DNA from: Bacteroidaceae bacterium
GTDB lineage: Bacteria; Bacteroidota; Bacteroidia; Bacteroidales; Bacteroidaceae
Direction of reading: 5' to 3'
Length of the DNA stretch: 42,612 bases
Assembly: GCA_017524545.1 (NCBI GenBank)
Contig: JAFXVN010000037.1
Span: forward strand, 1 to 42,612
Made by a program: the position numbers and the translations under genes. The first letter of the stretch is position 1; the number at the start of each line of letters is the position of its first letter. This document shows positions 11,108 to 35,980 of this stretch, one piece after another. The notes beneath the pieces are model-generated. The model worked only from the letters and a program-made list of their open reading frames with translations. It ran no database searches and was not told the origin of the DNA.

Positions 11108-11183
11108 ACAACCATTTTTGGTTGTAAAAGCCTAATACAACTTTTTATGGTTGTAAAGTGTAAAAACAACCGGAAAAGGTTGT
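11108..11183. repeat. Three 18-nt hairpins at exact 29-bp period
   Basis: Inverted repeats ACAAC-N8-GTTGT occur at 11108-11125, 11137-11154 and 11166-11183. The two spacers (11126-11136 and 11155-11165) are 11 nt each and A-rich, so the unit repeats every 29 bp. The pentamer arms are conserved, while the loops differ (CATTTTTG, TTTTTATG, CGGAAAAG). It lies between the GH128-like gene promoter and the truncated DUF3307 frame. An operator array for a dimeric regulator, a recombination site or small RNA hairpins are all possible. Confidence 0.75.
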
Positions 11184-11580
11184 GAATAATCCATCTTGTA
11201 TATGCCTAAGTGGTGCCTGGATGTCAGACAATCGGGTTTGGGCGGTTGCGGTCTGTTACATGTTGGCATTGAAGCCCTCTTCCATCCTGTTGGGAACTTT
11301 TATAGCCAAGTGGACACCCAAGGAGAACAAGGAAATCAGCCTGCCAAATGCAGGAGCATGGATTGGCTATCTTGAAAGGGTTCTGATACTGACATTCATG
11401 TTAGTTGGTTGCATGGATGGCATAGGCTTCCTACTTGCAGCCAAGTCCGTTTTCCGCTTTGGAGAGCTGACGAAACCAAGCGAAGTGAAAATAACGGAAT
11501 ATGTGATGATAGGAACCCTCTCCAGCTTCACCATCGCCATCATCCTCGGAGCCATTGCATCAAGGGTGATAGGCGGCTAA
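11182..11580 (+). pseudogene. Truncated DUF3307-like membrane protein (C-terminal half)
   Basis: The 132-codon frame opens with GTG at 11182; an ATG at 11221 would give 119 residues. The part NAGAWIGYLERVLIL followed by AAKSVFRFGELTKP and YVMIGTLSSFTIAIILGA resembles the C-terminal region of DUF3307 membrane proteins of Bacteroidetes, which as I recall are about twice this length. The N-terminal DUF3307 domain is missing, and the frame begins inside a hairpin array. Three hydrophobic segments remain. I read it as a remnant left by a deletion or recombination at the hairpins, though a short functional protein cannot be ruled out. Confidence 0.55.
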
Positions 11581-11590
11581 GCCGCCCCTA
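11570..11590. terminator. Stem-loop enclosing the DUF3307 stop codon
   Basis: GGCGGC (11572-11577) and GCCGCC (11581-11586) pair with the TAA stop codon as the 3-nt loop. No T-run follows, so termination is uncertain. A similar GCGGC/GCCGC core appears at about 23891, which suggests an interspersed palindrome. Confidence 0.4.
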
Positions 11591-11616
11591 CGGACTGGAC
11601 AAAGACAGAAAAAGAA

Positions 11617-12532
11617 ATGAATAGATTTGTAATCACTATGGCTTTGGCGGCATTGGTATTCAGTGGCTGCCGCGAAGAAGCCGATTATCATCCCTATATC
11701 GGCGAAACCGGGGATTTAGCTTACGACAGCTATTCCTCACAGTTTGACTACCTCTGGAAATGCATGAGCACCGGCTATGTGTTCTGGGATGTGGACGAAA
11801 CAGACTGGGATGCTGTTTACGACGAGTACATGCCCAAATTCCAGGCTCTCGACGCGAAGCATGAGGCGGGACAGGATGTCACCCTTGCCGAACTGGAGAC
11901 ACTCTATAGAGGGGTTGTAGGCGGTTTGAAGGACCATCACTTTTATTTTATGGTTAAAAACCTGTTTCCTCGCCAAACGACACGGAGTCCGATTTCTACA
12001 TTGAGCCAGGACAGCTCGAAGTGGAAAGCAGGGATTACTATATTGAGCCAAGAGCCGACGAGCAAACAAAGCTGGACTTGTTCCTGAGCAACATCGAACA
12101 GCATTACGACATAGAAGTGCATGAAACAGCCTCCGTTGAGATACCTGTATTGGAGGGTTCTGTCATTTACCATTACTGCCTGATTAAGCTTCCCGACGGG
12201 CGCAAGATACCCTATCTCTGGCAATCGATGGCAGCCCTCACACCCATTATAAAAGCTTCGGTAAGCGACGCTTCCAACCTAATAGGCCATTGGCTAACCG
12301 CCATCGCCGAGACGCCACGCGAGCAGCTGGCCGGTATCATTCTGGACAATCGCGCCAACGGTGGCGGGTATCAGGATGACATGGATTATCTCTTAGGCTC
12401 CTATATCGACGAAAAGACAGAGATTTTCAAGACGCGCTACAAGGAAGGGCCTGGGCGGTTGGAGCATTCCGCCTGGACGCCCTATTACATCTATCCTTAA
12501 AGCCAATACCATCGCGACCTCACTGCCGAGAA
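11617..12532 (+). pseudogene. S41-type protease-like lipoprotein, frameshifted and truncated
   Basis: The first part (from 11617) has a lipoprotein signal ending ALVFSGC and continues FDYLWKCMSTGYVFWDVD and YRGVVGGLKDHHFYFMVKN, as in N-terminal parts of Bacteroidetes S41 (C-terminal-processing-like) proteases. Near 11955-11968 the homologous reading shifts to another frame (SPNDTESDFYIEPGQLEVES), which runs through LAGIILDNRANGGG to a TAA at 12498-12500. The same frame then still reads SQYHRDLTAENR before hitting an inverted repeat at 12533. The region with the catalytic Ser of S41 enzymes is gone. The frameshift, the in-frame stop and the truncation together say pseudogene. Confidence 0.75.
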
Positions 12533-12590
12533 TAGACTTATAGCTCATTTTGCAGGCTACGATATGCCCGCAAAATGAGCTATAAGTCTA
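12533..12590. repeat. Perfect 21-bp inverted repeat with 16-nt loop
   Basis: Left arm 12533-12553 and right arm 12570-12590 are exact reverse complements (TAGACTTATAGCTCATTTTGC and its complement). It abuts the point where the S41 pseudogene loses similarity. There is no T-run after it. It could be the ends of a minimal mobile element, a remnant of one, or a strong RNA hairpin. Confidence 0.8.
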
Positions 12591-12745: not shown

Positions 12746-12753
12746 TATTTTTG
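12746..12753 (+). promoter_or_regulatory. Bacteroidetes-type -7 box (TATTTTTG)
   Basis: TATTTTTG matches TAnnTTTG and lies 18 nt before the ATG of the SpoIIE-type sensor gene. I see no second such box before the STAS or NRPS genes, so one transcript for all three is inferred. Confidence 0.5.
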
Positions 12754-12771: not shown

Positions 12772-14787
12772 ATGAAAAAGAAGTCTCTTCCGATAGTATG
12801 TGCGGTGTTTCTCGTGGTTGCGATGACGCTTCAGTTCGTCGTGTCGTATAGCCGTGAGAAGAAAGAACTGGTGAATCAGATTGAGTACAAGATGGAGCTG
12901 GCGCACAAGGACTTTATCTTTGAGGTGTTCGATGTGGTGGAGGCAACGGAAGATATTTCGCGATTCTTCCCAGAGTTTACGGACGATTCAGAGGAATTGT
13001 ACGCATTGGTAGAGATGGTGCTTTCTCATTTCCCGGATTTGTACTGCTGCTATGTGGCTTTTATACCTGAGCATTCGCCCAAGAAGGGTCATAGGTATGC
13101 ACCTTGTGCGTTTCGCAAGGAAAAAGATACGATTCAGACGTATGATTTCGGTGTGCATGTCCCTTATTTAGAGCGCGATTGGTACACGGGTGCTTTGGAG
13201 AGTGACGATAATGGTTATTGGAGTTTGCCGTACAACGACAGCGACCACGAGGATCCTATCTTCACGCATTCGCAGAAGGTGTATGACAAAAATGGCAAGT
13301 TGGTAGGTGTGGCTGGAGCGGACTGCACCTTGGAATGGACGAAGCAGATGTTAGAGGATATCATGCCGTACGACGATGCGGTCTGCCAACTTTTCAGTAA
13401 GGATGGAACGCTTATCGTGGCTTGCGGTAATGTTGAACACATCAATGATATGATTGTGTGCAGGAAGCAACTTTCTCCGACGGATATGCAGTTGGTGATA
13501 GGTGTGCCTAAGCATCATATAAGCGATGCCATCACTGGCATCAGTTTAATCACGCTCTCGGTGTTGCTGAGCGGCATTTTGGTCGTCGGGCTGCTGCTGC
13601 GCCATATCAAGAAGGAACACGATGCGTTCGTGCGCGTGGAGACGGCAAGCAAGGTGATGGAGAAAGAGATGCAGATTGCCAGTGGGATACAACTTGGGAT
13701 GCTTCCGAATAAAGGTAAAAGATTAAAAGTGAAAGGTGAGCGGGAAGACGTGCAGATTGATGCGAAGTTGATACCGATGCGGGAAGTGGGAGGTGACCTG
13801 TACGACTACTTCCGCAAGGGGGAGGACCTGTTCTTCATCATCGGTGACGTGAGCGGTAAGGGTGTACCGGCAGCGATGTTCATGAGTGCGACCGTCAACC
13901 TGTTCCGCTCGGCTGTTCAACGCTTGCAATCGCCCAAAGCGATTATAGAGGAGATGAATCATGTGCTGAGTGATAATAACCCGAGTCTGATGTTTGTCAC
14001 CGCCTTTGTCGGTCGGTTGCATGTGCCTACAGGCGAGTTGCTCTACTGCAATGCGGCACACTGCAAACCGATTCATTTACGATTTACCACTGATACACTG
14101 CCCATTGTGCCGAATATGCCGCTGGGGTTTGATGGGAAGTTCCGATTTGTGGAGCAGGGAGTGCTGTTAGGTAAGGGAGATTCAATTGTATTCTATACGG
14201 ATGGTATCACAGAGGCGCGAAACGAGAAACGGGAGATGTTGGGATTGGAACGATGGACGAAAATAGTCGAAAGGAGTCCACAAGTCGAAAGTCTCCTGGC
14301 GGAGGTGAAGACGTTTATCGGGAATGCGGAACAGACGGATGACATCACGCTGATGACGATTCGAAAGACCGATGCCGTGGAACCGCTTACGCTGCGGGTT
14401 GAGAACCGAATGGACTGTTGGCCGGAACTGCGGGCAGCATTGCATGACTACGGACTGTGCGCCGGTATGGAACTGCGGGCGCTGAAGAAGACAGAAGTTG
14501 CCATCGAAGAAGCGGTGGTGAATATCGTCAAGTACTCGCAAGCGGAATGGATGGAATTAGAGATTAGAGGATTAATGGATGAGAGGATGAGCGGATTAGA
14601 GGTGACGCTGCGCGATAACGGGGTGGCTTTTGACCCGACCAAGCGGGCAGAGGTAGATACCGAACAGGTTACGGCAGAACGACAGATAGGCGGTTTGGGA
14701 ATCGCTTTATTACATAAAATTGCAGATGAAGTGCGCTACAGTCGCACGAACGAAATAAACGAATTAACAATACTAAAAAACTTATAA
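12772..14787 (+). CDS. Membrane sensor with SpoIIE-type PP2C phosphatase and HATPase anti-sigma-like domain
   Basis: 671 residues. One transmembrane helix near 7-25, an extracytoplasmic Cache-like sensor (about 30-250, with RDWYTGA and VGVAGADCTLEW), and a second helix near 255-275. The PP2C/SpoIIE domain follows (about 300-530): VGGDLYDYF near 336, GDVSGKGVPAAMF near 360, FYTDGITEARN near 475 and TDDITLMTI near 522 carry the metal-binding Asp residues. The C-terminal HATPase domain (about 535-671) has the N box EEAVVNIVKYS and IGGLGIALLHKIADEV. Such proteins can dephosphorylate a STAS antagonist and, through the HATPase part, phosphorylate or bind it. The STAS gene follows 2 nt downstream, which fits a partner-switching pair. 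Two in-frame repeats (13711-13738 and 14554-14602) encode KGKRLKVKGERED and ELEIRGLMDERM. Confidence 0.85.
   Translation: MKKKSLPIVCAVFLVVAMTLQFVVSYSREKKELVNQIEYKMELAHKDFIFEVFDVVEATEDISRFFPEFTDDSEELYALVEMVLSHFPDLYCCYVAFIPEHSPKKGHRYAPCAFRKEKDTIQTYDFGVHVPYLERDWYTGALESDDNGYWSLPYNDSDHEDPIFTHSQKVYDKNGKLVGVAGADCTLEWTKQMLEDIMPYDDAVCQLFSKDGTLIVACGNVEHINDMIVCRKQLSPTDMQLVIGVPKHHISDAITGISLITLSVLLSGILVVGLLLRHIKKEHDAFVRVETASKVMEKEMQIASGIQLGMLPNKGKRLKVKGEREDVQIDAKLIPMREVGGDLYDYFRKGEDLFFIIGDVSGKGVPAAMFMSATVNLFRSAVQRLQSPKAIIEEMNHVLSDNNPSLMFVTAFVGRLHVPTGELLYCNAAHCKPIHLRFTTDTLPIVPNMPLGFDGKFRFVEQGVLLGKGDSIVFYTDGITEARNEKREMLGLERWTKIVERSPQVESLLAEVKTFIGNAEQTDDITLMTIRKTDAVEPLTLRVENRMDCWPELRAALHDYGLCAGMELRALKKTEVAIEEAVVNIVKYSQAEWMELEIRGLMDERMSGLEVTLRDNGVAFDPTKRAEVDTEQVTAERQIGGLGIALLHKIADEVRYSRTNEINELTILKNL
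13711..13738. repeat. AAAGGTAAAAGATTAAAAG repeat inside the SpoIIE gene
   Basis: An AT-rich repeat of the window's common style lies between the signalling linker and the phosphatase domain, encoding KGKRLKVKGE in frame. Confidence 0.6.
14554..14602. repeat. GATTAGAGGATTAATGGATG-type repeat in the HATPase domain
   Basis: Repeated GATTAGAG and GGATGAG units encode ELEIRGLMDERMSGLEV between the N box and the next ATP-binding motif, where a loop is expected. Confidence 0.6.
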
Positions 14788-14789
14788 CT

Positions 14790-15095
14790 ATGCAAGTTAA
14801 CATTCAACCGAACGGACAGGAGATGACCGTTCAACTCATCGGAGAATTAGACACAATGGCAACCACCGAACAGGCAGAAGAGTTACAACAAGTACTGAAC
14901 ATCGCCGATAAGGCGCTGCTCATCGATTGCAGCGAGATGGAGTATATCTCTTCGGCAGGTCTGCGTTTCTTTATGCAGCTCAAGCGCGAGAGTGAAGCAA
15001 AGGGCGGTTCAATCCGCATTGCTCATCTGAACGAAGATGTAGCCGACATCTTCAGCATGAGCGGTTTCCAGAACATCTTTACAATTGAAAGTTGA
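14790..15095 (+). CDS. STAS-domain anti-sigma factor antagonist
   Basis: 101 residues, a single STAS domain. The motif LIDCSEMEYISSAGLRFFMQL near 47-67 contains the serine that is phosphorylated in SpoIIAA/RsbV-type proteins. It starts 2 nt after the stop of the SpoIIE-HATPase gene, and its own stop comes 19 nt before the NRPS start, so the three are probably translated from one message. The role would be to bind or release the HATPase partner according to phosphorylation. What downstream target it controls is unknown: no sigma factor lies in the window. The last codons (TIES stop) fall within a GAAAGTTGAAATT repeat. Confidence 0.85.
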   Translation: MQVNIQPNGQEMTVQLIGELDTMATTEQAEELQQVLNIADKALLIDCSEMEYISSAGLRFFMQLKRESEAKGGSIRIAHLNEDVADIFSMSGFQNIFTIES

Positions 15096-15113
15096 AATTT
15101 AAAAGTTGAAAGC
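15084..15113. repeat. GAAAGTTGAAATTTAAAAG repeat at the STAS/NRPS junction
   Basis: Short AT-rich direct repeats (GAAAGTTGAA, AAAAGTTGAAAG) contain the STAS stop and the gap before the NRPS start codon. Confidence 0.55.
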
Positions 15114-15114
15114 C

Positions 15115-18100
15115 ATGAGAAGCCCGTTGAGTCAAGCGCAGGCTGGCATCTATTATGCCTGTGAGACGTCTGTGTCAGACGAGTATAACTACCAGAATAC
15201 AGCCCTCTTCGCCATCCCTGAAGATGCGGATTTGGTGCGGTTGCAGCAAGCTGTGCAGGGCGCATTGAGCGCGCACCCTTATATAGGCAGTCGTGTGGTG
15301 GTGAATGAAGAAGGAGTGCCAGAGATTGAGAGTGCCCCTGAAGGCGTAGAGTTTCGAGTCGAGCGTTTCGAGGTTACAGAGGAAGAGTGGAAGGCTGCCC
15401 AAAAGACGTTTTCGCAGACTATGGATGTCCACGGAGAGAAGTTGTATCGCACGGAAATCTATAGCGTCGAGGGCGGCAAGAGTTATCTCTACATCGACTT
15501 GCATCATGTGCTGACGGATGGCTTTTCGATGGCGGTGCTGTTGCGCGAGATTGAGCGGGTTTATAATGGAAAGAAACCTGCGGGTGAGATGATGGACGGT
15601 GTGGCTATCGCCAATGAAGAAGCTGCTCAACGTGCTGATGAGACACTGATGGGCGAAGCCCGAGATTGGTACGCGAAGACTTTCTGCGATGCTGCAGATA
15701 CCGACTCGTTGCCAATCCCGGAAGCTATAGACGAAAGTCAGAAGTCGAATGCAGGAAGCATGTATCAGTTCTTCCCATTAAGCGTGAGCAAGGAAGAGGT
15801 GCAGGCTATTGTAAAGCGCTTTGATACCAAGGAGAGTGTCATCATGCAAACGGCATTTGCGCAGTTGTTGGCGACCTACAGTGCCGAAGAGAAAGCCTCG
15901 TATTGCACGGCATTCTGGGGACGTACCGACCGCCGCACCTTGGGCGCTATCACGATGATGGTGCATACCTTGCCGGTGTTCATGCAGACGAAAGCCGACA
16001 CACCGATTGCCGACATGCTGAAAGGCATGGAAGAACAATTGCAGTTGACGCAGAAATACCAGTATTATGCCTATCCCGACGCAGTGCGTGACTTGGGGCT
16101 AAACAACCAAGTCATGTTCGTCTATCAAGGTTCTGTGTTGAACGACAAACGCGGTCTGTGTTTAGGAGGGGCTATGGCTCCTCATACCGACCTGCGTCGT
16201 CCTACGCCTGGTTGGAAACTCAGTGCAGAACTTTTTGAGACGGCCGACCAGTATGCCCTCAAACTTGGTTACAGCACTGCCGACTATTCGGAGGCCTTCT
16301 TGAAGCAGTTGGCTGATGCCTATAGCATGATTCTCCGCTCAATGGTGACGGCAGAGCGTGTCTGTGAACTCGAATACTGCTCCGAGTCGCAGTTGCAGTG
16401 GTTGGATGCACGCAATCCGAAAGCCCCGAAAGCATCCGAGGGTAGTCTGGTGGCCCGCTTCAAGCAACACGTAGCGGAACGACCGAACGCCATCTGTGTC
16501 GTCAGCGGCGACAAGCGACTGACGTATGCAGAAGTAGATAAACTCTCCGACACGCTCGACCCGCAATATACCGAACGCTGTGGCGAACATGTAATCGGTT
16601 ATTCGGTTCCACGCAACGAGCAGATGGTCATCGTGCCGCTGTCGATTGCCAAAGCCGGTAAGACGGCCCTTCCGTTGGACAGTAGTTATCCGGCGGAGCG
16701 CTTGGATTTCATGCGTGCTGATGCCGCTCAATACGAAGGCGGCGATGCGTTTATATTGCTCTACACCTCCGGCACGACAGGTACGCCAAAGGGTGTGATG
16801 CTGAGTGAGCAGAATATCTTGACGCACACCGAATTCCATAACAAGCACATCGGTTTGACGTCCGAGAGTCGTTATGCGACATACGCCGGCTATGGTTTCG
16901 ATGCATTTATGAACGACCTATGGGGATGTATGGTTGCTGGAGCGGCGATGTATGTTATCGGCGACGATATCCGTTTTGACCTCGATGCCATCCACGAATT
17001 TATCTTGCGAGAGCAGATTACACATATCTTCATGACCACCCAAGTGGCGACACAACTCGTACAGAACTTCCCCGACATCCCATGCTTGCAGCATCTGGGC
17101 ACCGGCGGAGAGAAACTGATGTCGCTCGAACCGCCAACCTACCGTCTGCTGAACGCCTACGGACCTACGGAAACGACGGTGTATGTATGCAGTTACTGGG
17201 TGGAGAAGAAAGAACCGAACATCCCAATCGGTCACTCGAACGACACGGCGCAGCTGTTCATTGTCAATAAGTATGGCAAACGAGTGCCTTGGGGTGCAGC
17301 AGGCGAATTGCTTGTGGCTGGTCCGCAGGTGGGCCTCGGTTATTTCAATCAACCGCAGAAGACCGCAGATGTCTTCGTGGAGTGGGACGGTAAGCGCGTC
17401 TATCGTACAGGCGATATCGTTCGCTACCGTCACGACGGTGAGATTGAGTTCGTGGGACGAAAGGACGGACAGGTCAAGATTCGCGGTTTCCGCATCGAGC
17501 TCAAAGAGGTGGAAGCGGTAATCCGTCAGTTCGAGGGCATCAAAGATGCAACGGTGCAGGCGTTCGACTATCCAACTGGAGGTAAGTTCATCGCCGCGTA
17601 TATCGTCAGCAATCAGAAGGTTGATATTCAGGCGCTTAATGCCTTCATCATGGACCAGAAACCGCCGTATATGGTACCTGCCGTGACGATGCAGATAGAC
17701 GCTATCCCACTGAACCAAAACCAAAAAGTGAACAAACGTGCCCTGCCTGAACCGAAAGCTCAGACGGACGATACACCCAAAGAGGCGGCTCCGCTGAACG
17801 TGCTTGAGGAACAGTTGGCGGACATTGTGGCAGGTATCGTCAACAACCATGATTTCGGTATCACAACCGACCTCCGCTATGTAGGACTCAGTTCCATCTC
17901 TGCCATCAAACTTGCGACACAGGTCTATAAGCGTTTCGGCGTTCAACTCGATGCCAAGCTGCTCGTCAAAGGTGCGAACATTCAGACGATAGAGAATGAG
18001 ATTTTGATGGCGATGTTGGGCGGCAATCGTGATACCGTAATATCGGAATCCCGTAATCCCGAAAATGATTTGACAGTGCCTTTCCCCTTGTCCCATGCCC

Positions 18101-21100
18101 AGACAGGTGTTTATTTCGAGTGCATGAAGAATCCCACTTCTACGCTGTATAACATCCCGATGCGTATGCGTCTGCCGTTGGAGATTGACGATGAAGCATT
18201 GCGTGCGGCGGTCACACAAGTAGTGAATAACCATCCCGAACTGTTTGTACATTTCCGCACCAACGACACTGGCGTAGAGCAAATTGTGGATAAAAGTTTA
18301 GAGTTTAGAGTTGAGAGTTTAGAGAAGAAAGAAGATGAACTTGATGCTTACCGTGCAGAGTTCGTGCGACCGTTCAACTTGAGCAAAGACCTGCTGTGCC
18401 GGTTCAGCATTGTGCGTACGGAACAGGCTTTGTACCTCTATTGCGACATGCACCACTTGGTGTGCGACGGAGCGTCGTACGATGTGTTCTTCAATGAACT
18501 TTGTACATTGCTCGACGGTGGCACAATCGACAAGGAGATGTGCAGTTATGCGCAGTTCGTAGCCGACGAACAGGCTGCGGAGACGGGCGAGGAATACGCC
18601 GCAGCGAAGGATTTCTTCCATTCGCAGTTGGCACAAGTGGAAGGTGCGACAGAAGTCGCCGCTGACTTGACGAACCCGAAAGACGGTGAAATCGGTCAGG
18701 TGTATGCCCCGATGGACATCAAGGCCGCTGAAGCTTTGGCACAAAAGGCAGGTGTCACACCGGCCGGTGCCACCCTCGCAGCGGTGTTCTATACGCTTGC
18801 GCGTTTTGCAAATGCGGATGATTTGTGTATCACCACCATCTCCAACGGCCGCAGTAACCTCAAGATGGCGAACACCATCGGCATGATGGTGAACACGCTC
18901 GCATTGAGCAGTAAGATAACGGACCAGACCGTCGAGGCTTTCGTTCGCGAGACGGGTGCACATTTCGAGCAGACATTGGCACACGAAAACTACCCGTTTG
19001 CGCAGATTGCTGCTGACTACGACCTGACGGCAGAGATTATGTTCGCTTACGAACTTGGCGTGCTGTCTGAGTACCGCGTCAAGGGTCAACTGGTTGCGAC
19101 CGAGAACATGGAGCTGAACGTGCCGAAGTTCAAGATTGCGTTCTATATCATAGAAGTGAACGGACGGCCGAGCGTGGCAATCGAGTACGACAACGGTCGG
19201 TATAGTAGTGAGCTGATGCAGTCGCTGGCGCAATCGGTGAGCAATGCCGTGAGTGCCTTTGCAGCCCAGCCGACAGCCGCCTTGCGTTCCGTCTCGCTGA
19301 TGGACGAAGTACAGACGAAATTGTTAGACAGCTTCAACGAGACGACGGTTCCATACGACAACACGCAGACCATTCTCTCTCTCTTCAAGGCACAAGTTGC
19401 CAAGACCCCGGATGCCCTTGCGCTCGTTTATCGCGACAAGAGGTTTACGTATCGCGAGGTGGATGAGATTTCCGACCGCATCGCCGCAGGTCTGCATCCG
19501 ACGACGAACGTCATTGCCATCAAGGTGCAGCGCAGCGAATGGATGGTGTTGGGTGCGTTGGCAGTCCTCAAAACCGGCTGTGCGTACCTGCCGCTCGACC
19601 CGAGTTATCCAGAAGAGCGACTCAGCTACATGCAGCAAGATGCCAACAGCTGTATGCTCCTCACGGAGAAAGAATTTGAAGAGCTTTCTAATTATCAATT
19701 ATTAATTGTCAATTATCCATTATCAAATCCTTCAGATTTGTTCATCCTCCTCTATACTTCCGGCTCGACGGGCGTGCCGAAAGGTGTCATGCTGGAGCAC
19801 GGAAACCTTGTGGCGTTCTGTCATTGGTACCAGCGCTACTACGACCTGCATGTCGGACATAAGGTTGCGGCATACGCAAGCTTTGGTTTCGATGCGTGCA
19901 TGATGGACCTCTATCCGGCTCTGACCTGCGGTGCAGCAGTTGTTATCGTGCCGGAAGACCTGCGTCTGAACCTGCCGGAACTGGGTCGTTACTTTGATGC
20001 CGAAGGTATCACACATTCGTTTATGACGACCCAAATCGGGTATCAGTTTGCAACGAACGTCGAGTGTCATTCGCTCGAACACCTGTCGGTGGGCGGTGAA
20101 GCTCTCTCTGCACTCAATCCGCCGACGGATTATAAGATGTACAACGGATATGGTCCGACGGAGTGTACCATCTTCACAACCACCTATCTGCTGCAAGAAT
20201 ACGAACAGCATATCCCGATTGGCAAACCGCTGGATAACCTACAGTTGTTCATCATGGACACCAACGGTCAGCGTCTGCCGTTCGGTGCTACGGGTGAGTT
20301 GTGGGTGAGTGGTCCGCAAGTGGGTCGGGGTTACTTGAACCTGCCAGAAAGGACTGCCGAGTCCTTCGTCACGCGAGGCGGCCTCCGCTTCTATCGCACC
20401 GGCGACATTGTGCGGTACTTGCCCGACGGTAACATCCAGTTCGTGGGGCGTCGGGACGGACAGGTGAAGATTCGTGGTTTCCGTATCGAACTCAAAGAGG
20501 TGGAAGCCGTCATCCGTCAGTTCGAGGACATCAAAGATGCCACCGTGCAAGCCTTCGACTATCCCAACGGCGGTAAGTTCATCGCTGCGTATGTGGTGAG
20601 CGACCAGCAGATTGACGTAGCGGCCCTCAACGCCTTCATCCGCGAGCGCAAACCGCCTTACATGGTGCCGGCAGCGACGATGCAGATTGACGTTATTCCG
20701 CTAAACCAGAACCAGAAAGTGAACAAACGTGCTCTGCCTGCTCCGAAGATTCAGGCGGACGAACATGACTATGTAGCACCTGCCAACGACACCGAGAAGC
20801 TGTTTGCGGACATCTTCGCGTCGGTTCTCTCGCTCGATAGGGTAGGGGCAACAGATAATTTCTTTGAGCTGGGCGGTACGTCGCTCATGGTGACGCGCGT
20901 CATCATCGAAGCCGACAAAGCGGGTAAGCATATCGCGTATGCCGACCTCTTTGCCCACACCACGCCGCGTGCGTTGGCGACCCTGGTGGACGGACAGAGT
21001 GCCGTGAATGAAAGCGAGACCGTGGACCGTGAAATCACAGAGTTTGACTATACCGCCATCAACGAACTGCTGCAAGCCAACAGCCTTGAATCATTCAAGG

Positions 21101-22233
21101 CCGGCGAGCGCCAAGAGTTAGGTAACGTCCTGCTCACTGGTGCAACGGGTTATTTGGGTATTCATGTCCTGAAAGAACTCATCGACTCCGACGCCAAGAC
21201 CATCACATGTCTGGTGCGCGGCAAGAGTCAGGAAGATGCCCAGCGACGTGTTCGCAACTTGTTGTTCTACTATTTCAGCCGCCGTTTCGATGAACTCTTC
21301 GGCTCGCGTATCTTCGTCCTCCAAGGCGATGTAACACAGGACATCACAGAAATTATCAATTGTCAATTATCAATTATCAATTCCATTGATACAGTGTTCA
21401 ATTGCGCTGCAAACGTGAAGCACTTCTCGAAGGGTACAGACATTGAAGATGTCAACATCGGCGGAGCACAGCGATGTGTTGATTTCTGTTTGGCTACAGG
21501 TGCGGCACTCGTTCATGTATCGACGACTTCCACAGGCGGTGTTTGGATTGGAGGTAACCTACCTGCACCAGTGCTCACAGAGCAGAACATCTGGTTCGGG
21601 CAGTATCTCGGCAACCAATACATGCACTCCAAGTTCCTCGCCGACCGTCTCATCCTTGATGCAGTGGCAACGAAGGGCCTCAGGGCGAAGGTCATGCGTG
21701 TGGGCAACCTTGCGGCACGCAGCTACGACGGTGAGTTCCAGGTGAACTTCTCTACGAACAGCTACATGGGTCGTATCAAGATCTTCAACATGCTTGGCTG
21801 CTGCCCCTTCGACCAATACGACCAGCCTACGGAGTTCTCGCCCATCAACGAGACCGCCCGTGCAATCGTCCTGCTCGCCACGACACCCAGGGAGTGTACC
21901 GTCTTCCAGCCCTATAGCACCCACACCCGTCTGCTGGGCAACGTGCTGCAGGTGCTGGATAAACTCGGCACGAAGATGCAGTTCGTTGAACCTGAAGCCT
22001 TCGGCTTGGCAGTGCAGCAGGCAGCGTTAGACCCGAATAAAGCACCGTTACTCACCACGATGCTCGCTTATCAGAACATCGCACACGGCCAACCGACGCA
22101 GATTGTGGACCGCAACAACGCCTACACGTCGCAAGTGCTCCTGCGCCTCGGATTCCAATGGACCGAACCCGACAATGAGTATATCGGCCGCATGTTGACC
22201 GCCATCTCGCAATTAGGTTTCTTTGATGTATAA
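15115..22233 (+). CDS. Nonribosomal peptide synthetase, C-A-T-C-A-T-R (2373 codons)
   Basis: I take the ATG at 15115 (a TTG at 15106 is less likely). The domains, in order: a condensation domain (HHVLTDG near 130), adenylation A1 (YTSGTTGTPKG near 547; YGPTETT near 685; NQNQKVNKRALP near 867), thiolation T1 (GLSSISAIKL, Ser near 926), condensation 2 (HHLVCDG near 1112), A2 (YTSGSTGVPKG near 1544; NQNQKVNKRALP near 1863), T2 (LGGTSLMV, Ser near 1922), and a C-terminal thioester reductase (GATGYLGIHVLKEL near 2008; YMHSK Tyr-Lys pair near 2168). A first C domain suggests an acylated starter; the reductase suggests release as an aldehyde. The residues I align to the specificity code are DANFGGAVYK for A1 and DAMFSGGIFK for A2, without assigning an amino acid. 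No phosphopantetheinyl transferase or MbtH gene is in the window. Four AT-rich repeats lie in linkers. Confidence 0.92.
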   Translation: MRSPLSQAQAGIYYACETSVSDEYNYQNTALFAIPEDADLVRLQQAVQGALSAHPYIGSRVVVNEEGVPEIESAPEGVEFRVERFEVTEEEWKAAQKTFSQTMDVHGEKLYRTEIYSVEGGKSYLYIDLHHVLTDGFSMAVLLREIERVYNGKKPAGEMMDGVAIANEEAAQRADETLMGEARDWYAKTFCDAADTDSLPIPEAIDESQKSNAGSMYQFFPLSVSKEEVQAIVKRFDTKESVIMQTAFAQLLATYSAEEKASYCTAFWGRTDRRTLGAITMMVHTLPVFMQTKADTPIADMLKGMEEQLQLTQKYQYYAYPDAVRDLGLNNQVMFVYQGSVLNDKRGLCLGGAMAPHTDLRRPTPGWKLSAELFETADQYALKLGYSTADYSEAFLKQLADAYSMILRSMVTAERVCELEYCSESQLQWLDARNPKAPKASEGSLVARFKQHVAERPNAICVVSGDKRLTYAEVDKLSDTLDPQYTERCGEHVIGYSVPRNEQMVIVPLSIAKAGKTALPLDSSYPAERLDFMRADAAQYEGGDAFILLYTSGTTGTPKGVMLSEQNILTHTEFHNKHIGLTSESRYATYAGYGFDAFMNDLWGCMVAGAAMYVIGDDIRFDLDAIHEFILREQITHIFMTTQVATQLVQNFPDIPCLQHLGTGGEKLMSLEPPTYRLLNAYGPTETTVYVCSYWVEKKEPNIPIGHSNDTAQLFIVNKYGKRVPWGAAGELLVAGPQVGLGYFNQPQKTADVFVEWDGKRVYRTGDIVRYRHDGEIEFVGRKDGQVKIRGFRIELKEVEAVIRQFEGIKDATVQAFDYPTGGKFIAAYIVSNQKVDIQALNAFIMDQKPPYMVPAVTMQIDAIPLNQNQKVNKRALPEPKAQTDDTPKEAAPLNVLEEQLADIVAGIVNNHDFGITTDLRYVGLSSISAIKLATQVYKRFGVQLDAKLLVKGANIQTIENEILMAMLGGNRDTVISESRNPENDLTVPFPLSHAQTGVYFECMKNPTSTLYNIPMRMRLPLEIDDEALRAAVTQVVNNHPELFVHFRTNDTGVEQIVDKSLEFRVESLEKKEDELDAYRAEFVRPFNLSKDLLCRFSIVRTEQALYLYCDMHHLVCDGASYDVFFNELCTLLDGGTIDKEMCSYAQFVADEQAAETGEEYAAAKDFFHSQLAQVEGATEVAADLTNPKDGEIGQVYAPMDIKAAEALAQKAGVTPAGATLAAVFYTLARFANADDLCITTISNGRSNLKMANTIGMMVNTLALSSKITDQTVEAFVRETGAHFEQTLAHENYPFAQIAADYDLTAEIMFAYELGVLSEYRVKGQLVATENMELNVPKFKIAFYIIEVNGRPSVAIEYDNGRYSSELMQSLAQSVSNAVSAFAAQPTAALRSVSLMDEVQTKLLDSFNETTVPYDNTQTILSLFKAQVAKTPDALALVYRDKRFTYREVDEISDRIAAGLHPTTNVIAIKVQRSEWMVLGALAVLKTGCAYLPLDPSYPEERLSYMQQDANSCMLLTEKEFEELSNYQLLIVNYPLSNPSDLFILLYTSGSTGVPKGVMLEHGNLVAFCHWYQRYYDLHVGHKVAAYASFGFDACMMDLYPALTCGAAVVIVPEDLRLNLPELGRYFDAEGITHSFMTTQIGYQFATNVECHSLEHLSVGGEALSALNPPTDYKMYNGYGPTECTIFTTTYLLQEYEQHIPIGKPLDNLQLFIMDTNGQRLPFGATGELWVSGPQVGRGYLNLPERTAESFVTRGGLRFYRTGDIVRYLPDGNIQFVGRRDGQVKIRGFRIELKEVEAVIRQFEDIKDATVQAFDYPNGGKFIAAYVVSDQQIDVAALNAFIRERKPPYMVPAATMQIDVIPLNQNQKVNKRALPAPKIQADEHDYVAPANDTEKLFADIFASVLSLDRVGATDNFFELGGTSLMVTRVIIEADKAGKHIAYADLFAHTTPRALATLVDGQSAVNESETVDREITEFDYTAINELLQANSLESFKAGERQELGNVLLTGATGYLGIHVLKELIDSDAKTITCLVRGKSQEDAQRRVRNLLFYYFSRRFDELFGSRIFVLQGDVTQDITEIINCQLSIINSIDTVFNCAANVKHFSKGTDIEDVNIGGAQRCVDFCLATGAALVHVSTTSTGGVWIGGNLPAPVLTEQNIWFGQYLGNQYMHSKFLADRLILDAVATKGLRAKVMRVGNLAARSYDGEFQVNFSTNSYMGRIKIFNMLGCCPFDQYDQPTEFSPINETARAIVLLATTPRECTVFQPYSTHTRLLGNVLQVLDKLGTKMQFVEPEAFGLAVQQAALDPNKAPLLTTMLAYQNIAHGQPTQIVDRNNAYTSQVLLRLGFQWTEPDNEYIGRMLTAISQLGFFDV
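18291..18330. repeat. TTTAGAGTTTAGAGTT repeat in NRPS
   Basis: AAGTTTAGAGTTTAGAGTTGAGAG repeats encode KSLEFRVESLEKKE in the second condensation domain, before the HHLVCDG motif. The frame is kept. Confidence 0.7.
19686..19728. repeat. AATTATCAATTATTAATTGTC repeat in NRPS A2 domain
   Basis: Tandem AATTATC/AATTGTC heptamers encode LSNYQLLIVNYPLSN in the loop just before the ATP-binding YTSGSTG motif. Confidence 0.8.
21350..21384. repeat. AATTATCAATTGTCAATTATC repeat in NRPS reductase
   Basis: Five AATTATC/AATTGTC units encode EIINCQLSIINS in the reductase domain, between the first beta-alpha units of the Rossmann fold. The frame is kept. Confidence 0.8.
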
Positions 22234-30922: not shown

Positions 30923-32182
30923 ATGAACATCAAAGTACGTCTTACCATTCTGAACTTCATTGAGTTCGCAGTTTGGGGAGCTTATCTCATCTCAATGGGT
31001 CTTTATCTTGGCGGTGAAGGACTTGGCTCCAACATTGGCTGGTTCTATTCAGTTCAAGGCTTCGTGAGCCTTTGTATGCCAGCCCTTATGGGTATTGTTG
31101 CAGACAAGTGGATTCAGGCACAGCGACTGCTTGCCCTCTGTCATTTCTTTGCAGGACTCTTCATGATTGCCTGTTGCTTCTATGGCTTGTCGGCAGCAGG
31201 AAGTGTAAGCTTCGGTGCATTGTTTACCCTCTACACTATTAGCGTAGCTTTCTTCATGCCAACCATAGCCCTCACTAATTCTGTTGCCTATAATGCACTC
31301 GAGAAGGAAGGCTTGGATACTGTAAAGGCATTCCCTCCTATTCGTGTGTGGGGAACCGTAGGTTTCATCTGCTCCATGTGGGCGGTGAACCTTCTTGGCT
31401 TCAAATCGACGCCTTACCAGTTCGCTCTTTCTGGAGGCTTGAGTATGCTGATGGCACTCTACTCACTGACAATGCCTACATGTCCCACTAACCAGAGCGG
31501 AGAGAAGAAATCTCTTGTTGATGCACTGGGCCTTCGTGCCTTTGCCTTGTTCAAGGACTACAAGATGGCACTTTTCTTCATCTTCTCCATGCTTCTCGGC
31601 TCATGCCTGCAGATTACCAATGGCTATGCCACGAGCTACCTTGAGGCTTGGGGGGCTTTGCCACAATATGCAGACTCCTTGATGGTGAAGTACAGCGTTA
31701 TTGTCACCTCCATTTCCCAGATGAGCGAGACACTTTGCATTCTGCTCATTCCCTTCTGCTTGAGTCGCTTTGGCATTAAGAAGGTGATGCTCATGGCAAT
31801 GCTTGCCTGGACACTTCGTTTTGGTTTCTTTGCAATCGGCAACCCAGGTTCAGGCTTCATCTTCATATTGCTTTCAATGATAGTGTATGGCGTAGCTTTT
31901 GACTTCTTCAACATCAGCGGCTCGCTCTTTGTTGATAAGGAAACAGACCTCAGCATCCGCAACTCAGCGCAAGGCCTCTTCATGATGATGACTAATGGCT
32001 TTGGAGCAACGATAGGAATGCTTTGCGCCCAGTTTGTTGTCAATCATTATGTCTTCAATCTTCCAGAAGGCAGCGACCTCCTTCCAGGTTGGCAGACTTG
32101 TTGGTACATCTTTGCAGCTTATGCACTCATTGTTGCAGTCTTGTTTGCAATACTCTTTAGGTACAAGCATAATCCTAAATGA
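30923..32182 (+). CDS. MFS nucleoside permease (NupG type)
   Basis: 419 residues with about 12 hydrophobic helices. It begins MNIKVRLTILNFIEFAVWGAYLISMGLYL and has GWFYSVQGFVSLCMPALMGIVADKW and AFPPIRVWGTVGFICSMWAVNL, as in the nucleoside:H+ symporter family. It imports nucleosides across the inner membrane. Its stop codon overlaps the rsmE start (ATGA). Confidence 0.88.
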   Translation: MNIKVRLTILNFIEFAVWGAYLISMGLYLGGEGLGSNIGWFYSVQGFVSLCMPALMGIVADKWIQAQRLLALCHFFAGLFMIACCFYGLSAAGSVSFGALFTLYTISVAFFMPTIALTNSVAYNALEKEGLDTVKAFPPIRVWGTVGFICSMWAVNLLGFKSTPYQFALSGGLSMLMALYSLTMPTCPTNQSGEKKSLVDALGLRAFALFKDYKMALFFIFSMLLGSCLQITNGYATSYLEAWGALPQYADSLMVKYSVIVTSISQMSETLCILLIPFCLSRFGIKKVMLMAMLAWTLRFGFFAIGNPGSGFIFILLSMIVYGVAFDFFNISGSLFVDKETDLSIRNSAQGLFMMMTNGFGATIGMLCAQFVVNHYVFNLPEGSDLLPGWQTCWYIFAAYALIVAVLFAILFRYKHNPK

Positions 32183-32941: not shown

Positions 32942-35359
32942 TTAGAGCTCAACCAAGACACGGCCGTTTATCATGCGTCCGGTCAGGTAGTTTGGCACAG
33001 CATACTGGTGGTTGCTGATGTCGGTTATCCAATAGTAGCTGCTGACGTTGTCGAGTCCGAAGATGTTGAAGCAATCGACGCCAAGCCAGATGTTACGCAG
33101 GAAATTGCAGCGGCGCATGTGGCGGTCTTCGTTGTTGATGAGGCGGTAGTTCATGCCGATGTCGAAGCGACGGTAGGCAGGTGCGCGGAAGGCATTGCGC
33201 TCCAATCCTGTGTGTGGCGGTCCGAATGGAAGTCCGCCGGCAAAGCTTGCCTTGAGGCTCATCTTCCAGCGGGTAGTGCCAGGGAAATAGTCGGTGAAGA
33301 AAAGGTTGATGTTGTAGCGTTGGTCGGTGGGCTGCGGAATTGTCTGTCCGTTCAGCTTCATGCTTGCTTTCATTACTCCGAAGCTTATCCATGAATCTGT
33401 TCCTGGCACGAACTCACCGTAGAGCTTGAAGTCGGCACCCACGACATAACCCGTTGCGCAGTTGTTGCCGTAATAGACAATCTTCAGGTTGTCCACGTTG
33501 TAGGGGTTGAGTTTCCATTGTGCCTTGTAATAGGCTTCGGTTGTGAATTTGAAGGGTCGGTTGGCTATTTTGAACTTATACTCCATGCCGGCAACGACTT
33601 GGAAGCTGCGCTGCGACTTGATGTTGCGGTTGAGCTGTACGGTGGTGTTGCCTGCTATGGTCACGGTGTCGCGCAATTCCTTGTAGAAGGGACGCTGGTT
33701 GTAGAGACCTGCGGCAAGGCGGAAGGTGAAGTTGTCGTTGCTTGACGGGACGAAACCCAGGCTGACACGCGGGCTGAAGAGCCATTCCTTGTTCCACCCC
33801 CAGTAGCTGAGTCTCATGCCGTAATTGAGGCTGAGAACGCCCATGTTGCTTTCTTTGCGGTATGTGTCTTGGGCGTATAGTTCAAGGTGGTTCCCGTTGA
33901 TGGTGTTCTTGGCACGCATGTTATAGATGATTTGGAGGTCTGTGCCAGTATGCGGCACGCTGTAGCCGCTGCTGTCGCGGTACTCCCATTCGTTGCTGTT
34001 CTCGCGCACCTTCTCGTGCTTCCAGCCCAAGCCAGCCTGCATCAGGTGGTGTCCCTTCTTCAGGTCGTAGTTGAGCTTTATTGTCTGGACGTTGCTGTAG
34101 AGGAAGTTGCGGGCGTGTTCCATGTAGGAACCCACGCCGAGCTGCTCGTCGCCGTTTGTCTCGTTGAGCCAGTATTGTCCTTGGATGTCGTATGTCTCTT
34201 TCTCCCGGTTGTTGAATGCCGATGCTGTGAGGCAGATGGAGCTTGACTCCCCAAGCCTGCGAGCTGCACGGATAGTGCCGAAGAGGGTCTGGAACTGGTC
34301 CTCTTCCTTTCCGTCGAAATAGACCTTGAAGCTCTTCACGTCGTCCATTGTGCCGAACTTCGTTTCGCGGTCTGTCGGCGTGAAATTGTAGTTGTTGCGA
34401 TTGATATAGACGATGGCATCGAAAGTCCAGTCCTTCGATGGTGCCCAGCGCAAGTAGGCTTGGTAGTCGAGGAAGTTTGGCTTGTACTCGCCTTTTGTCT
34501 CAAGGCTGCCGAGCAGGTATTGGTTGGTCTTGTATCGCAGTCCGTTGCTGAAAGAGAATTCCCCGCGCCCAGCTTTAGGGGAAGTGCCGTAGCCGACATA
34601 GACGTTTGCGCCGAGCAGACTGGCGGTCGCGGATGCTTCGAGCCGCTCGGGATGAGCGTATGTGATGTCGAGCACGCTGGACATTTTGTCACTGTACTTT
34701 GCCTCGAAGCCACCTGCGGAGAAGTTGATTTTCTCCACCATGTCGCTGTTGATGACGGAGAGGCCTTCCTGCTGCCCGCTGCTGACGAGCATGGGGCGAT
34801 AGATTTCCACACCGTTGATATAGACGCAGTTCTCGTCGAAAGAGCCGCCTCGGACGTTGTACTGGCTGCTGAGTTCGTTGTGCGAGCTGACACCCGCTTG
34901 TGTGGCGACAAGCTCTTCGACGGCATTGCCCGAGGTGCTTGGCATCCGTTTCAGGTCTTTCTTGTTGAGCTCCTGCATTGCGCCCATCTGCCGGCGCGTC
35001 TCTGCCACCGTCACCTCTGCCATCTCCTTGCCGCTTTCGCGCATCACGATGTTGAGCGTCAGGTTGCCTTTGGGCTTCTTGAGCACACGCTTTCGGGTCT
35101 CGTAGCCTATCATGCTATAAACGACGACGACGCTGTCTGCCGTCTGAAACGACAGCTTGTACTGCCCGTCAAGCGAAGCCGTCGTGCCGAAGGGCTGTCC
35201 CTCGATGCGCACCTGGCAAAGGGCAACAGGGTCTTGGCTCTCATCGACCACCTTGCCTTTCAGGTGCACTTTTGCCGTATCGGGCTGCTCTTGCTCTTGT
35301 GCAGATATGCTCGTTATGCCCCACAGAAGAGGCAAAAAGAATAAGAAGAAACGTTTCAT
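32942..35359 (-). CDS. TonB-dependent receptor with CarboxypepD-reg-like N-terminal domain
   Basis: 805 residues from the ATG at 35359, where a signal peptide (MKRFFLFFLPLLWGITSISAQ) begins; the open frame continues 600 nt upstream as antisense of the nitroreductase gene and is rejected. Residues about 30-115 are the carboxypeptidase-regulatory-like beta-sandwich (VHLKGKVVDESQDPVALCQV). The plug follows (ELVATQAGVSSHNELSSQYN and VRGGSFDENCVYINGVEIY), then a beta-barrel with many aromatic strands and an end MINGRVLVEL. No SusD partner is next to it, so it is a stand-alone receptor, shorter than SusC. It imports an unknown ligand across the outer membrane. Confidence 0.9.
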   Translation of the reverse strand: MKRFFLFFLPLLWGITSISAQEQEQPDTAKVHLKGKVVDESQDPVALCQVRIEGQPFGTTASLDGQYKLSFQTADSVVVVYSMIGYETRKRVLKKPKGNLTLNIVMRESGKEMAEVTVAETRRQMGAMQELNKKDLKRMPSTSGNAVEELVATQAGVSSHNELSSQYNVRGGSFDENCVYINGVEIYRPMLVSSGQQEGLSVINSDMVEKINFSAGGFEAKYSDKMSSVLDITYAHPERLEASATASLLGANVYVGYGTSPKAGRGEFSFSNGLRYKTNQYLLGSLETKGEYKPNFLDYQAYLRWAPSKDWTFDAIVYINRNNYNFTPTDRETKFGTMDDVKSFKVYFDGKEEDQFQTLFGTIRAARRLGESSSICLTASAFNNREKETYDIQGQYWLNETNGDEQLGVGSYMEHARNFLYSNVQTIKLNYDLKKGHHLMQAGLGWKHEKVRENSNEWEYRDSSGYSVPHTGTDLQIIYNMRAKNTINGNHLELYAQDTYRKESNMGVLSLNYGMRLSYWGWNKEWLFSPRVSLGFVPSSNDNFTFRLAAGLYNQRPFYKELRDTVTIAGNTTVQLNRNIKSQRSFQVVAGMEYKFKIANRPFKFTTEAYYKAQWKLNPYNVDNLKIVYYGNNCATGYVVGADFKLYGEFVPGTDSWISFGVMKASMKLNGQTIPQPTDQRYNINLFFTDYFPGTTRWKMSLKASFAGGLPFGPPHTGLERNAFRAPAYRRFDIGMNYRLINNEDRHMRRCNFLRNIWLGVDCFNIFGLDNVSSYYWITDISNHQYAVPNYLTGRMINGRVLVEL

Positions 35360-35415
35360 CTTATATAATAACGAAGAAAGTGGCGTTTTTTGTATATCAT
35401 CCCATAACTTTTTTG

Positions 35416-35423
35416 TACCTTTG
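35416..35423 (+). promoter_or_regulatory. Bacteroidetes-type -7 box (TACCTTTG)
   Basis: TACCTTTG, 24 nt before the nitroreductase start. The TonB receptor gene reads the other way from 35359. Confidence 0.6.
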
Positions 35424-35446
35424 TCCCCGAAACACATAAAAAAGAC

Positions 35447-35980
35447 ATGAAAGACTTTAGCGAATTGATAAAGACGAGGCGCAGTATGCGTCAGTTTACG
35501 GACGAGCTGTTGAGTGGCGACGACGTGAAGCTTCTGCTCCGTGCTGCTCTGATGGCACCCAGCAGCAAGGGGCTTCACAGCTATGAATTCATCGTGGTGG
35601 AGGACAAGGAGATGCTTGCTGCCCTGAGCCAGTGCAAGCAAATGGGCAGCGACTTCCTGGCGGGTGCTCCGCTGGCCGTCGTCGTGCTTGCCGACCCTGC
35701 TGTGAGCGATGTGTGGATTGAGGACGCTTCGGTGGCAGCGACGCATATCCTGCTTCAAGCCGAAGACCTTGGGCTGGGAGCCTGCTGGATACAGGTGCGC
35801 AACAGGCATACTGCCGATGGGCGTCCGGCAGAAGAGATTGTGAAGTCCCTGCTCGGCATTCCCGAAGAGCGGGGAGTCGTGTGCATCGTTGCCGTCGGCC
35901 ACAAGGGTATGGAGCGCAAGCCCCAGAATGAAGAGCGGCTGAAATGGGAACACATACATCTCGGGAAATTTACGATTTAA
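35447..35980 (+). CDS. Nitroreductase family protein
   Basis: 177 residues. The FMN-binding pattern is present: IKTRRSMRQFTDE near 7-20, AALMAPSSKGLHSYEFIVV near 32-50 and the later DASVAATHILLQAEDLGLGACWIQ. This small form (about 170-180) is common in Bacteroidales. It is a cytosolic NAD(P)H-dependent flavoprotein of unknown substrate. The last codons (KFTI stop) lie in the start of an ACGATTTAACGATTTACGATTT repeat, so the stop may have been set by the repeat. Confidence 0.88.
   Translation: MKDFSELIKTRRSMRQFTDELLSGDDVKLLLRAALMAPSSKGLHSYEFIVVEDKEMLAALSQCKQMGSDFLAGAPLAVVVLADPAVSDVWIEDASVAATHILLQAEDLGLGACWIQVRNRHTADGRPAEEIVKSLLGIPEERGVVCIVAVGHKGMERKPQNEERLKWEHIHLGKFTI

Follow-up and report, generated by a model that had tools for sequence, protein, structure and literature searches.

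What does a partner-switching module control when the gene beside it codes for a non-ribosomal peptide synthetase (NRPS) and the usual target, a sigma factor, is missing from its surroundings? This question is raised by a stretch of 42,612 nt from a Bacteroidaceae bacterium (assembly GCA_017524545.1, contig JAFXVN010000037.1, positions 1 to 42,612), hereafter the window. In it a sensor protein with SpoIIE phosphatase and HATPase kinase domains and a STAS protein precede an NRPS ending in a reductase domain (R-terminated). We consider it somewhat probable that the two upstream genes, here called the cassette, form a sigma-free partner switch dedicated to the NRPS pathway.

Organization of the operon and its upstream region

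The preliminary description of this DNA, made from the sequence alone, had placed the three genes in one operon with short gaps, and the open reading frames, all on the + strand, the gaps and the domain searches bear this arrangement out (Table 1). The sensor gene and the STAS gene are separated by 2 nt, and the STAS gene and the NRPS gene by 19 nt, counted from the ATG at 15115. The Pfam domains found are MCP-like_PDC_1, SpoIIE and HATPase_c_2 in the first product, STAS in the second, and two Condensation, AMP-binding, two PP-binding and a terminal NAD_binding_4 (reductase) domain in the third. The window had also been said to hold neither a phosphopantetheinyl transferase (PPTase) nor a transporter. 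The first half of this statement stands, the single ACPS match of the genome lying on another contig (G000:C68); the second half does not strictly hold, as the window includes a nucleoside symporter (30923-32182) as well as a TonB-dependent receptor (32942-35959), both distant from the operon. Small open reading frames directly upstream of the operon (11182-12500), one of them with a Tricorn_C1 match (11617-12087), may be fragments of a decayed protease gene.

Table 1. Features of the operon and of the region preceding it
Feature	Position	Strand	Basis
20-pair inverted repeat, 8-base loop, between upstream ORFs and operon	12538..12585	.	pattern match; terminator-like on - strand
TATTTTTG, possible Bacteroidota -7 box	12746..12753	+	chance level; position not kept in five relatives
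dCache sensor-SpoIIE phosphatase-HATPase kinase, 671 aa	12772..14787	+	domain search; AlphaFold model mean pLDDT 84, pTM 0.54
First transmembrane helix, about aa 5-27	12784..12852	+	hydropathy
Extracytoplasmic dCache fold, about aa 26-254; R135-x-W137-Y138, Y154, D184	12847..13533	+	domain match, fold
Second transmembrane helix, about aa 253-280	13528..13611	+	hydropathy
SpoIIE/PPM phosphatase domain	13819..14364	+	metal-binding aspartates conserved
HATPase_c_2, RsbW/SpoIIAB-like kinase	14422..14772	+	domain match, N-box N584
STAS protein, 101 aa	14790..15095	+	domain match, RsbV alignment
Codon of STAS Ser55	14952..14954	+	invariant; aligned with RsbV serine
NRPS, C-A-T-C-A-T-R; alternative start TTG 15106	15115..22233	+	domain search
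N-terminal condensation domain, HHVLTDG	15121..16380	+	domain match, motif
Adenylation domain 1	16426..17775	+	domain match
Carrier domain 1	17821..18030	+	domain match
Condensation domain 2, HHLVCDG	18076..19335	+	domain match, motif
Adenylation domain 2	19381..20745	+	domain match
Carrier domain 2	20791..21000	+	domain match
Terminal NAD(P)-dependent reductase domain	21061..22230	+	NAD_binding_4 at aa 2010-2224; 6vtj match

A single promoter box had been reported before the operon. The box itself exists (TANNTTTG, one copy at 12746-12753); as a promoter it is at chance level, the same pattern occurring 21 times in the window, where 16.35 copies (sd 3.98) would be expected, no TTTG lies at the proper spacing from it, and an alignment with five relatives, judged by eye, does not keep it at its position. 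Bacteroidota promoters consist of -33 and -7 elements, and this full pattern has two matches across the window, none of them at the operon. As the -7 box is at chance level and the full pattern is missing there, we do not claim a promoter at this place. Promoter footprinting upstream of the operon was likewise given up, the window and the five relatives aligning too poorly for it. A separate promoter for the NRPS gene would have little room, because the gap in front of it is so short.

An apparently intact switch and an R-terminated synthetase

The metal-binding aspartates D342, D359 and D477 of the phosphatase are present in all 90 NRPS-linked SpoIIE proteins, and D523 and D524 in 89 of them, the remaining one being gapped. 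The asparagine N584 of the HATPase N-box and the glycines are kept in each of the 82 NRPS-linked proteins that are ungapped at this site (8 of the 90 are gapped there). Ser55 of the STAS protein aligns with the phosphorylatable serine of RsbV, and it is found without exception among the 108 STAS proteins (90-160 aa) from all loci collected by then, NRPS-linked or not. With the phosphatase, kinase and STAS motifs kept across the NRPS-linked set, the switch looks intact. The sole phmmer match and the top Foldseek match of the first protein are one and the same structure, 3ke6 (Rv1364c).

The sensor domain adopts a dCache fold. In PctA, the amino-acid motif dCache_1AA comprises Y121, R126, W128, Y129, Y144 and D173 (PMC10104139). 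Compared by spacing from these published residues rather than by residue-by-residue alignment to PctA, the residues R135, W137, Y138, Y154 and D184 of the window sensor fit the motif roughly, the first tyrosine lying 3, not 5, residues before the arginine. An amino-acid-like ligand is thus a reasonable first guess for the sensors of the window clade, judging from the conserved R-x-W-Y...Y...D residues. R135 is kept in just 23 of the 90 NRPS-linked sensors; the sensors consequently vary within this set, and a single ligand common to all of them is unlikely.

The reductase domain of the NRPS follows the last carrier domain, as in other R-terminated enzymes, and the solved NRPS chain 6vtj matches residues 1885-2373. 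The product is probably a peptide aldehyde, to judge from this domain. The best NCBIfam match is AusA, the R-terminated dimodular NRPS of aureusimine (1023 bits, best stretch residues 990-2362); this score lies below the curated cut-off of 2500 for the AusA equivalog. The modules of AusA are ordered A-T-C-A-T-R. The window NRPS shares this series and, unlike AusA, has an extra condensation domain at its N-terminus, suggestive of an acylated product. In the core motifs of the adenylation domains, read by eye, no familiar specificity code was recognised.

Linkage of the cassette to NRPS genes

The preliminary description proposed looking for the same gene order in related genomes, and named rare adjacency as an argument against its interpretation. 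Among 139 genomes of the genus that were searched, 64 carried Condensation domains; 60 stretches were fetched and, with six earlier loci, gave a genus set of 66 loci. This set contains 68 NRPS-like genes of at least 1000 aa, 48 of which have at least 4.5 kb of upstream sequence, and 33 of these 48 have the architecture C-A-T-C-A-T-R. In 29 of the 33, the window included, a STAS gene lies on the same strand no more than 4 kb upstream; three of the exceptions (L089, L092, L096) lack an upstream cassette and the fourth (L100) has its cassette downstream on the other strand. For all architectures together, STAS was found in 35 and SpoIIE in 31 of the 48.

A scan of public genomes gave 80 named NRPS loci, the best 80 of 569. 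These belong to Bacteroidetes wherever a taxon is given (L162 is named only ‘bacterium’), and many come from ruminants. STAS lies upstream in 47 of the 80, downstream in 9, on the opposite strand in 6 and is absent from 18, several of which are cut by a contig end. Among the 45 of these loci with at least 4 kb upstream and 5 kb downstream, a STAS gene is found within about 10 kb in 41 (upstream in 30, downstream in 8, on the opposite strand in 3), and SpoIIE is matched as well in 40 of the 41, the remaining one (L138) having HATPase and STAS; the cassette is missing from the fetched stretch in four (L155, L168, L174, L187). The genus set and the set of named loci share genomes, and their counts are not additive. 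In other families of the order the cassette accompanies 2 of 11 NRPS loci (L217, L218) and is absent from nine, some of them cut by a contig end.

The genome of the window carries three SpoIIE genes per 3.6 Mb; at this density a random stretch of 25 kb would hold about 0.02. Given so few SpoIIE genes, linkage of this frequency is not due to chance. The direct order SpoIIE-STAS-NRPS occurs in 18 of 35 window-type loci (31 of the best 80 of 569, together with the window, L085, L094 and L075), the gaps between the longest open reading frames ranging from -17 to 26 nt and from -14 to 90 nt, respectively; the three genes are thus often adjacent in relatives. The relatives are nearly all metagenome assemblies and several loci are near copies. 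In one locus (L032:2648-12308, G082) the order is NRPS-SpoIIE-STAS, so that the linkage survives rearrangement. Four NRPS genes without the first condensation domain and uncut at that end (L068, L070, L073, L078) have no STAS gene in the fetched stretches; they are too few for a claim.

Sigma factors as possible targets

The absence of a sigma gene beside the pair had already been noted, and searches of the whole genome and of the genus strengthen this observation. In the assembly of the window, which is 92.4% complete, 14 genes code for sigma-70 region 2 and only one for region 3, presumably RpoD; most of the other 13 are of the size of ECF factors, and a family search detected no SigB/SigF-type (group-3) sigma factor in this assembly. 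Over 61 genomes of the genus, 51 have one region-3 sigma factor, five have two and five have none.

Sigma-like genes occur in 11 of 201 loci (L011, L041, L068, L070, L108, L129, L148, L166, L185, L192, L197) and in none of the 201 between cassette genes; these loci include overlapping stretches, and the genome's own sigma proteins, used as queries, overlook ECF factors that have diverged, since just 8 of these 14 queries match any of the others. The sigma-like genes nearest to an NRPS-linked cassette are found at 1.5 kb (L185, L192) and 1.7 kb (L197). In another locus (L041; G046:C96, the same contig as L011), a Cache-SpoIIE-HATPase gene with no NRPS or STAS match beside it in that stretch is preceded at 0.44 kb by a divergently oriented sigma-like gene (L041:6907-7350); this is the single case in which a neighbouring sigma factor is conceivable as the target. 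In two loci (L068, L070) an A-T-C-A-T-R NRPS gene lacks a cassette, and a sigma-like gene is found 1.16 kb from it on the other strand.

These data bear on transcriptional control, in which the HATPase or the free STAS protein would act on an ECF sigma factor, an anti-sigma factor or another regulator encoded elsewhere and so drive the NRPS operon. The preponderance of sigma factors without region 3 and the few cases of proximity, at 0.44 kb and 1.5-1.7 kb, speak for it, and the modularity of the cassette across NRPS types, described below, would be compatible with an output that makes no contact with the NRPS. However, sigma-like genes are rare in the loci and never interrupt the cassette, there is no regulator among the identified clusters of recurring neighbours and, to our knowledge, no HATPase is known to control ECF factors. 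Transcriptional control is possible, but we regard it as rather doubtful.

Neighbouring genes and operon forms

In the 35 window-type loci the recurring neighbour clusters are NRPS (35), SpoIIE (29), STAS (27) and PPTase (8), all others occurring in at most four. Among the latter are an outer-membrane barrel and an SNF transporter, in four loci each, and the window has neither. In the other main operon type STAS and NRPS are mostly separated by a barrel (28 of 66 loci; its Alginate_exp score is equal to the cut-off) or by an SNF transporter (7 of 66), and a MATE exporter (21 of 66), a PPTase and an AMP-binding-like protein (6, below the family cut-off) may be added. The window operon looks like a minimal version of some larger type of operon.

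The frequent barrels between STAS and NRPS, and the MATE genes after the NRPS, indicate that export is probably part of many such operons. Together with the extracytoplasmic position of the sensor, they lend some weight to pure feedback, in which the NRPS product or the damage that it causes would be the sensed signal, the STAS protein would drive export, tolerance or a change of the envelope, and the linkage would reflect sensing of the product and not control of its synthesis. The rarity of barrel and SNF clusters in window-type loci, their absence from the window and the variation of the sensors within the NRPS-linked set argue against it, and we consider it improbable.

Combinations of cassette type and NRPS type

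In a quick FastTree of 119 SpoIIE proteins, with local support values only, the NRPS-linked rows fall into the window clade, which has 24 rows, a small clade of three rows and a large one in which 61 of 62 rows are NRPS-linked. A further group of 28 holds 12 of the 13 RelA rows, all six PSD rows, both APH rows and three NRPS-linked rows. The window's own SpoIIE appears in this tree as row L001, which is mistyped there as NRPSb, the locus holding just part of the NRPS. Two loci (L145, L065) combine a cassette of the window type with the other type of NRPS, and two more (L156, L164) show the reverse. Distance correlations over 80 loci with all four domains (ten duplicates dropped, others possibly remaining) gave r values of 0.87 for STAS-SpoIIE and 0.74 for C2-R; 0 of 999 permutations reached any of the r values. 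Across modules, where tight STAS-NRPS co-evolution was sought, r was low in the same 80 loci (0.33 for STAS-C2, 0.43 for STAS-R). Given this and the types swapped among loci, no tightly co-evolved interface between STAS and NRPS is seen. The cassette and the NRPS behave as two modules repeatedly kept together.

A neutral neighbourhood, arising from common ancestry or joint transfer without any functional connection, is suggested by the relatedness of the genomes, the near copies and the NRPS loci without a cassette, and is nevertheless highly improbable, since other neighbour clusters except PPTase recur in at most 4 of 35 window-type loci, NRPS-linked SpoIIE proteins occupy at least three separate parts of the tree, and the cassette is also found downstream, on the opposite strand and in two loci of other families.

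Sister cassettes beside other enzymes

Besides the SpoIIE gene of the window, its genome has one on contig C39 and one on C32. On C39 (L048:5508-12878, G000:C39) the order is NMT1, SpoIIE, STAS, RelA/SpoT, HD domain and citrate transporter, the family names being taken from L042 and the gene places from L048. A STAS gene adjoins a RelA/SpoT gene in eight distinct contigs (L004, L005, L009, L012, L018, L043, L048, L135), and in L030 an HD gene stands between the two. RelA/SpoT-linked SpoIIE-STAS cassettes are also seen in L034, L035, L039, L042 and L043, where genes for an HD-domain protein, a CitMHS transporter and a periplasmic NMT1 protein frequently accompany them. It is possible that this cassette is a partner switch acting on alarmone metabolism. 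In one stretch (L135:1880-17116) a SpoIIE-STAS-RelA/SpoT cassette is followed on the same strand by a SpoIIE-STAS-NRPS cassette.

On C32 (L049) a SpoIIE gene without HATPase adjoins a gene for a STAS-APH fusion. Fusions of STAS to an APH-like phosphotransferase are encoded at L049:10916-12163, L038:5686-6879 and L034:5127-6338, with an adjacent Cache-SpoIIE gene in L049 and L038; such a protein would be a STAS switch physically joined to an enzyme. A third kind of cassette stands beside phosphatidylserine decarboxylase (L036, L047, L050), together with a protein that matches no Pfam family and is about 250-275 aa long. The fourth STAS match of the window genome is a 589-aa frame on C58, which we take to be probably a SulP transporter. 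Taking C39, C32 and the window together, each of the three SpoIIE genes found in the assembly stands beside an enzyme gene. These sister loci are the best matches to the window SpoIIE and not an even sample.

Comparison with known partner switches

The PPM aspartates, the HATPase boxes and the STAS serine of the window cassette are shared with the RsbU-RsbW-RsbV/SigB and SpoIIE-SpoIIAB-SpoIIAA/SigF systems; in contrast to these, no SigB/SigF-type sigma factor was found in the genome and an NRPS is adjacent. The phosphatase and the kinase are joined in one polypeptide, as in Rv1364c of Mycobacterium tuberculosis. In Rv1364c the STAS domain sits in the same chain, whereas the STAS protein of the window is separate.

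Partner switches acting on enzymes have been described for the cyclases SiaD, HsbD and BgrR (PMC8457831; PMC7647112). The target in SiaABCD of Pseudomonas aeruginosa, HsbD/HsbA and BgrR/BgrV is a diguanylate cyclase (PMC8457831), whereas here it is apparently the NRPS pathway. As in SiaABCD, a candidate target enzyme is encoded beside the phosphatase, the kinase and the STAS protein; by domain search this neighbour is the NRPS and not a diguanylate cyclase. Two further differences are that the kinase and the phosphatase form one chain in the window, and that its STAS protein belongs to Pfam STAS, SiaC being a DUF1987 protein (PMC8457831). SypA, RbaV, HmpV and BtrV resemble the window protein in being STAS outputs with an unknown or non-sigma target; unlike it, the outputs described for them are biofilm, gene transfer agents, hormogonium motility/polysaccharide and secretion, with no NRPS among them (PMC8256260).

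A study of rumen gene clusters reported 5,346 NRPS clusters, some Prevotella clusters being more expressed in less feed-efficient steers; its main text mentions neither STAS nor SpoIIE by name (PMC8241843). Among the matches listed for open-licence PMC papers, none described a SpoIIE-STAS-NRPS cassette in its title or at the start of its abstract, and joint mentions of STAS domain and NRPS, or of SpoIIE, NRPS and Bacteroid, in the passages concerned were confined to a reference list, bicarbonate transporters and sporulation gene names. What appears to be new here is the pairing of a partner switch with an NRPS as its putative output.

Proposed mechanism

The interpretation first given for this locus, a dedicated switch pair linked to an R-terminated NRPS with no adjacent sigma gene, is retained here, less its promoter. 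From the genes observed, their intact motifs, their conserved linkage and the missing class of target, we infer the following signalling steps. An extracytoplasmic ligand would bind the dCache domain, as its fold suggests, and shift the balance between the HATPase kinase and the SpoIIE phosphatase of the same chain, both of which have intact motifs. The STAS protein would thereby be phosphorylated or dephosphorylated on its invariant Ser55, and one of its two forms would turn the NRPS pathway on or off. Its target would be a protein of the pathway, either the NRPS itself or a factor needed for NRPS expression, much as SiaC acts on SiaD; we place the target there because no SigB/SigF-type sigma factor was detected in the assembly and no sigma gene recurs beside the cassette. 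The modularity of the loci argues against a tightly fitted STAS-NRPS interface. In favour of an enzyme as target are the missing sigma factor of the classical kind and the position of the sister cassettes, which likewise stand next to enzyme genes.

A bolder version of this dedicated switch, which we put forward only tentatively, holds both that the STAS protein directly and reversibly controls the NRPS after translation and that sigma-free switches are a general plug-in for enzymes in this lineage of Bacteroidales. If such direct control were true, an extracellular, perhaps amino-acid, signal would set the output of peptide aldehyde within minutes. If the second part were true, the enzymes concerned would include the NRPS, the RelA/SpoT alarmone enzyme, phosphatidylserine decarboxylase and the APH-like kinase fused to STAS.

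Clusters coding for NRPSs are mostly regarded as transcriptionally controlled. The conservation of a sensor-phosphatase-kinase-STAS cassette in dozens of Bacteroidales assemblies, many of them from ruminants, points to a further layer of control on these clusters. The cassette offers a handle on the timing of cluster activity, and it suggests that cyclases are not the only enzymes on which STAS switches act. Its paralogues beside RelA/SpoT would, by the same device, link signals from outside the cell to the stringent response.
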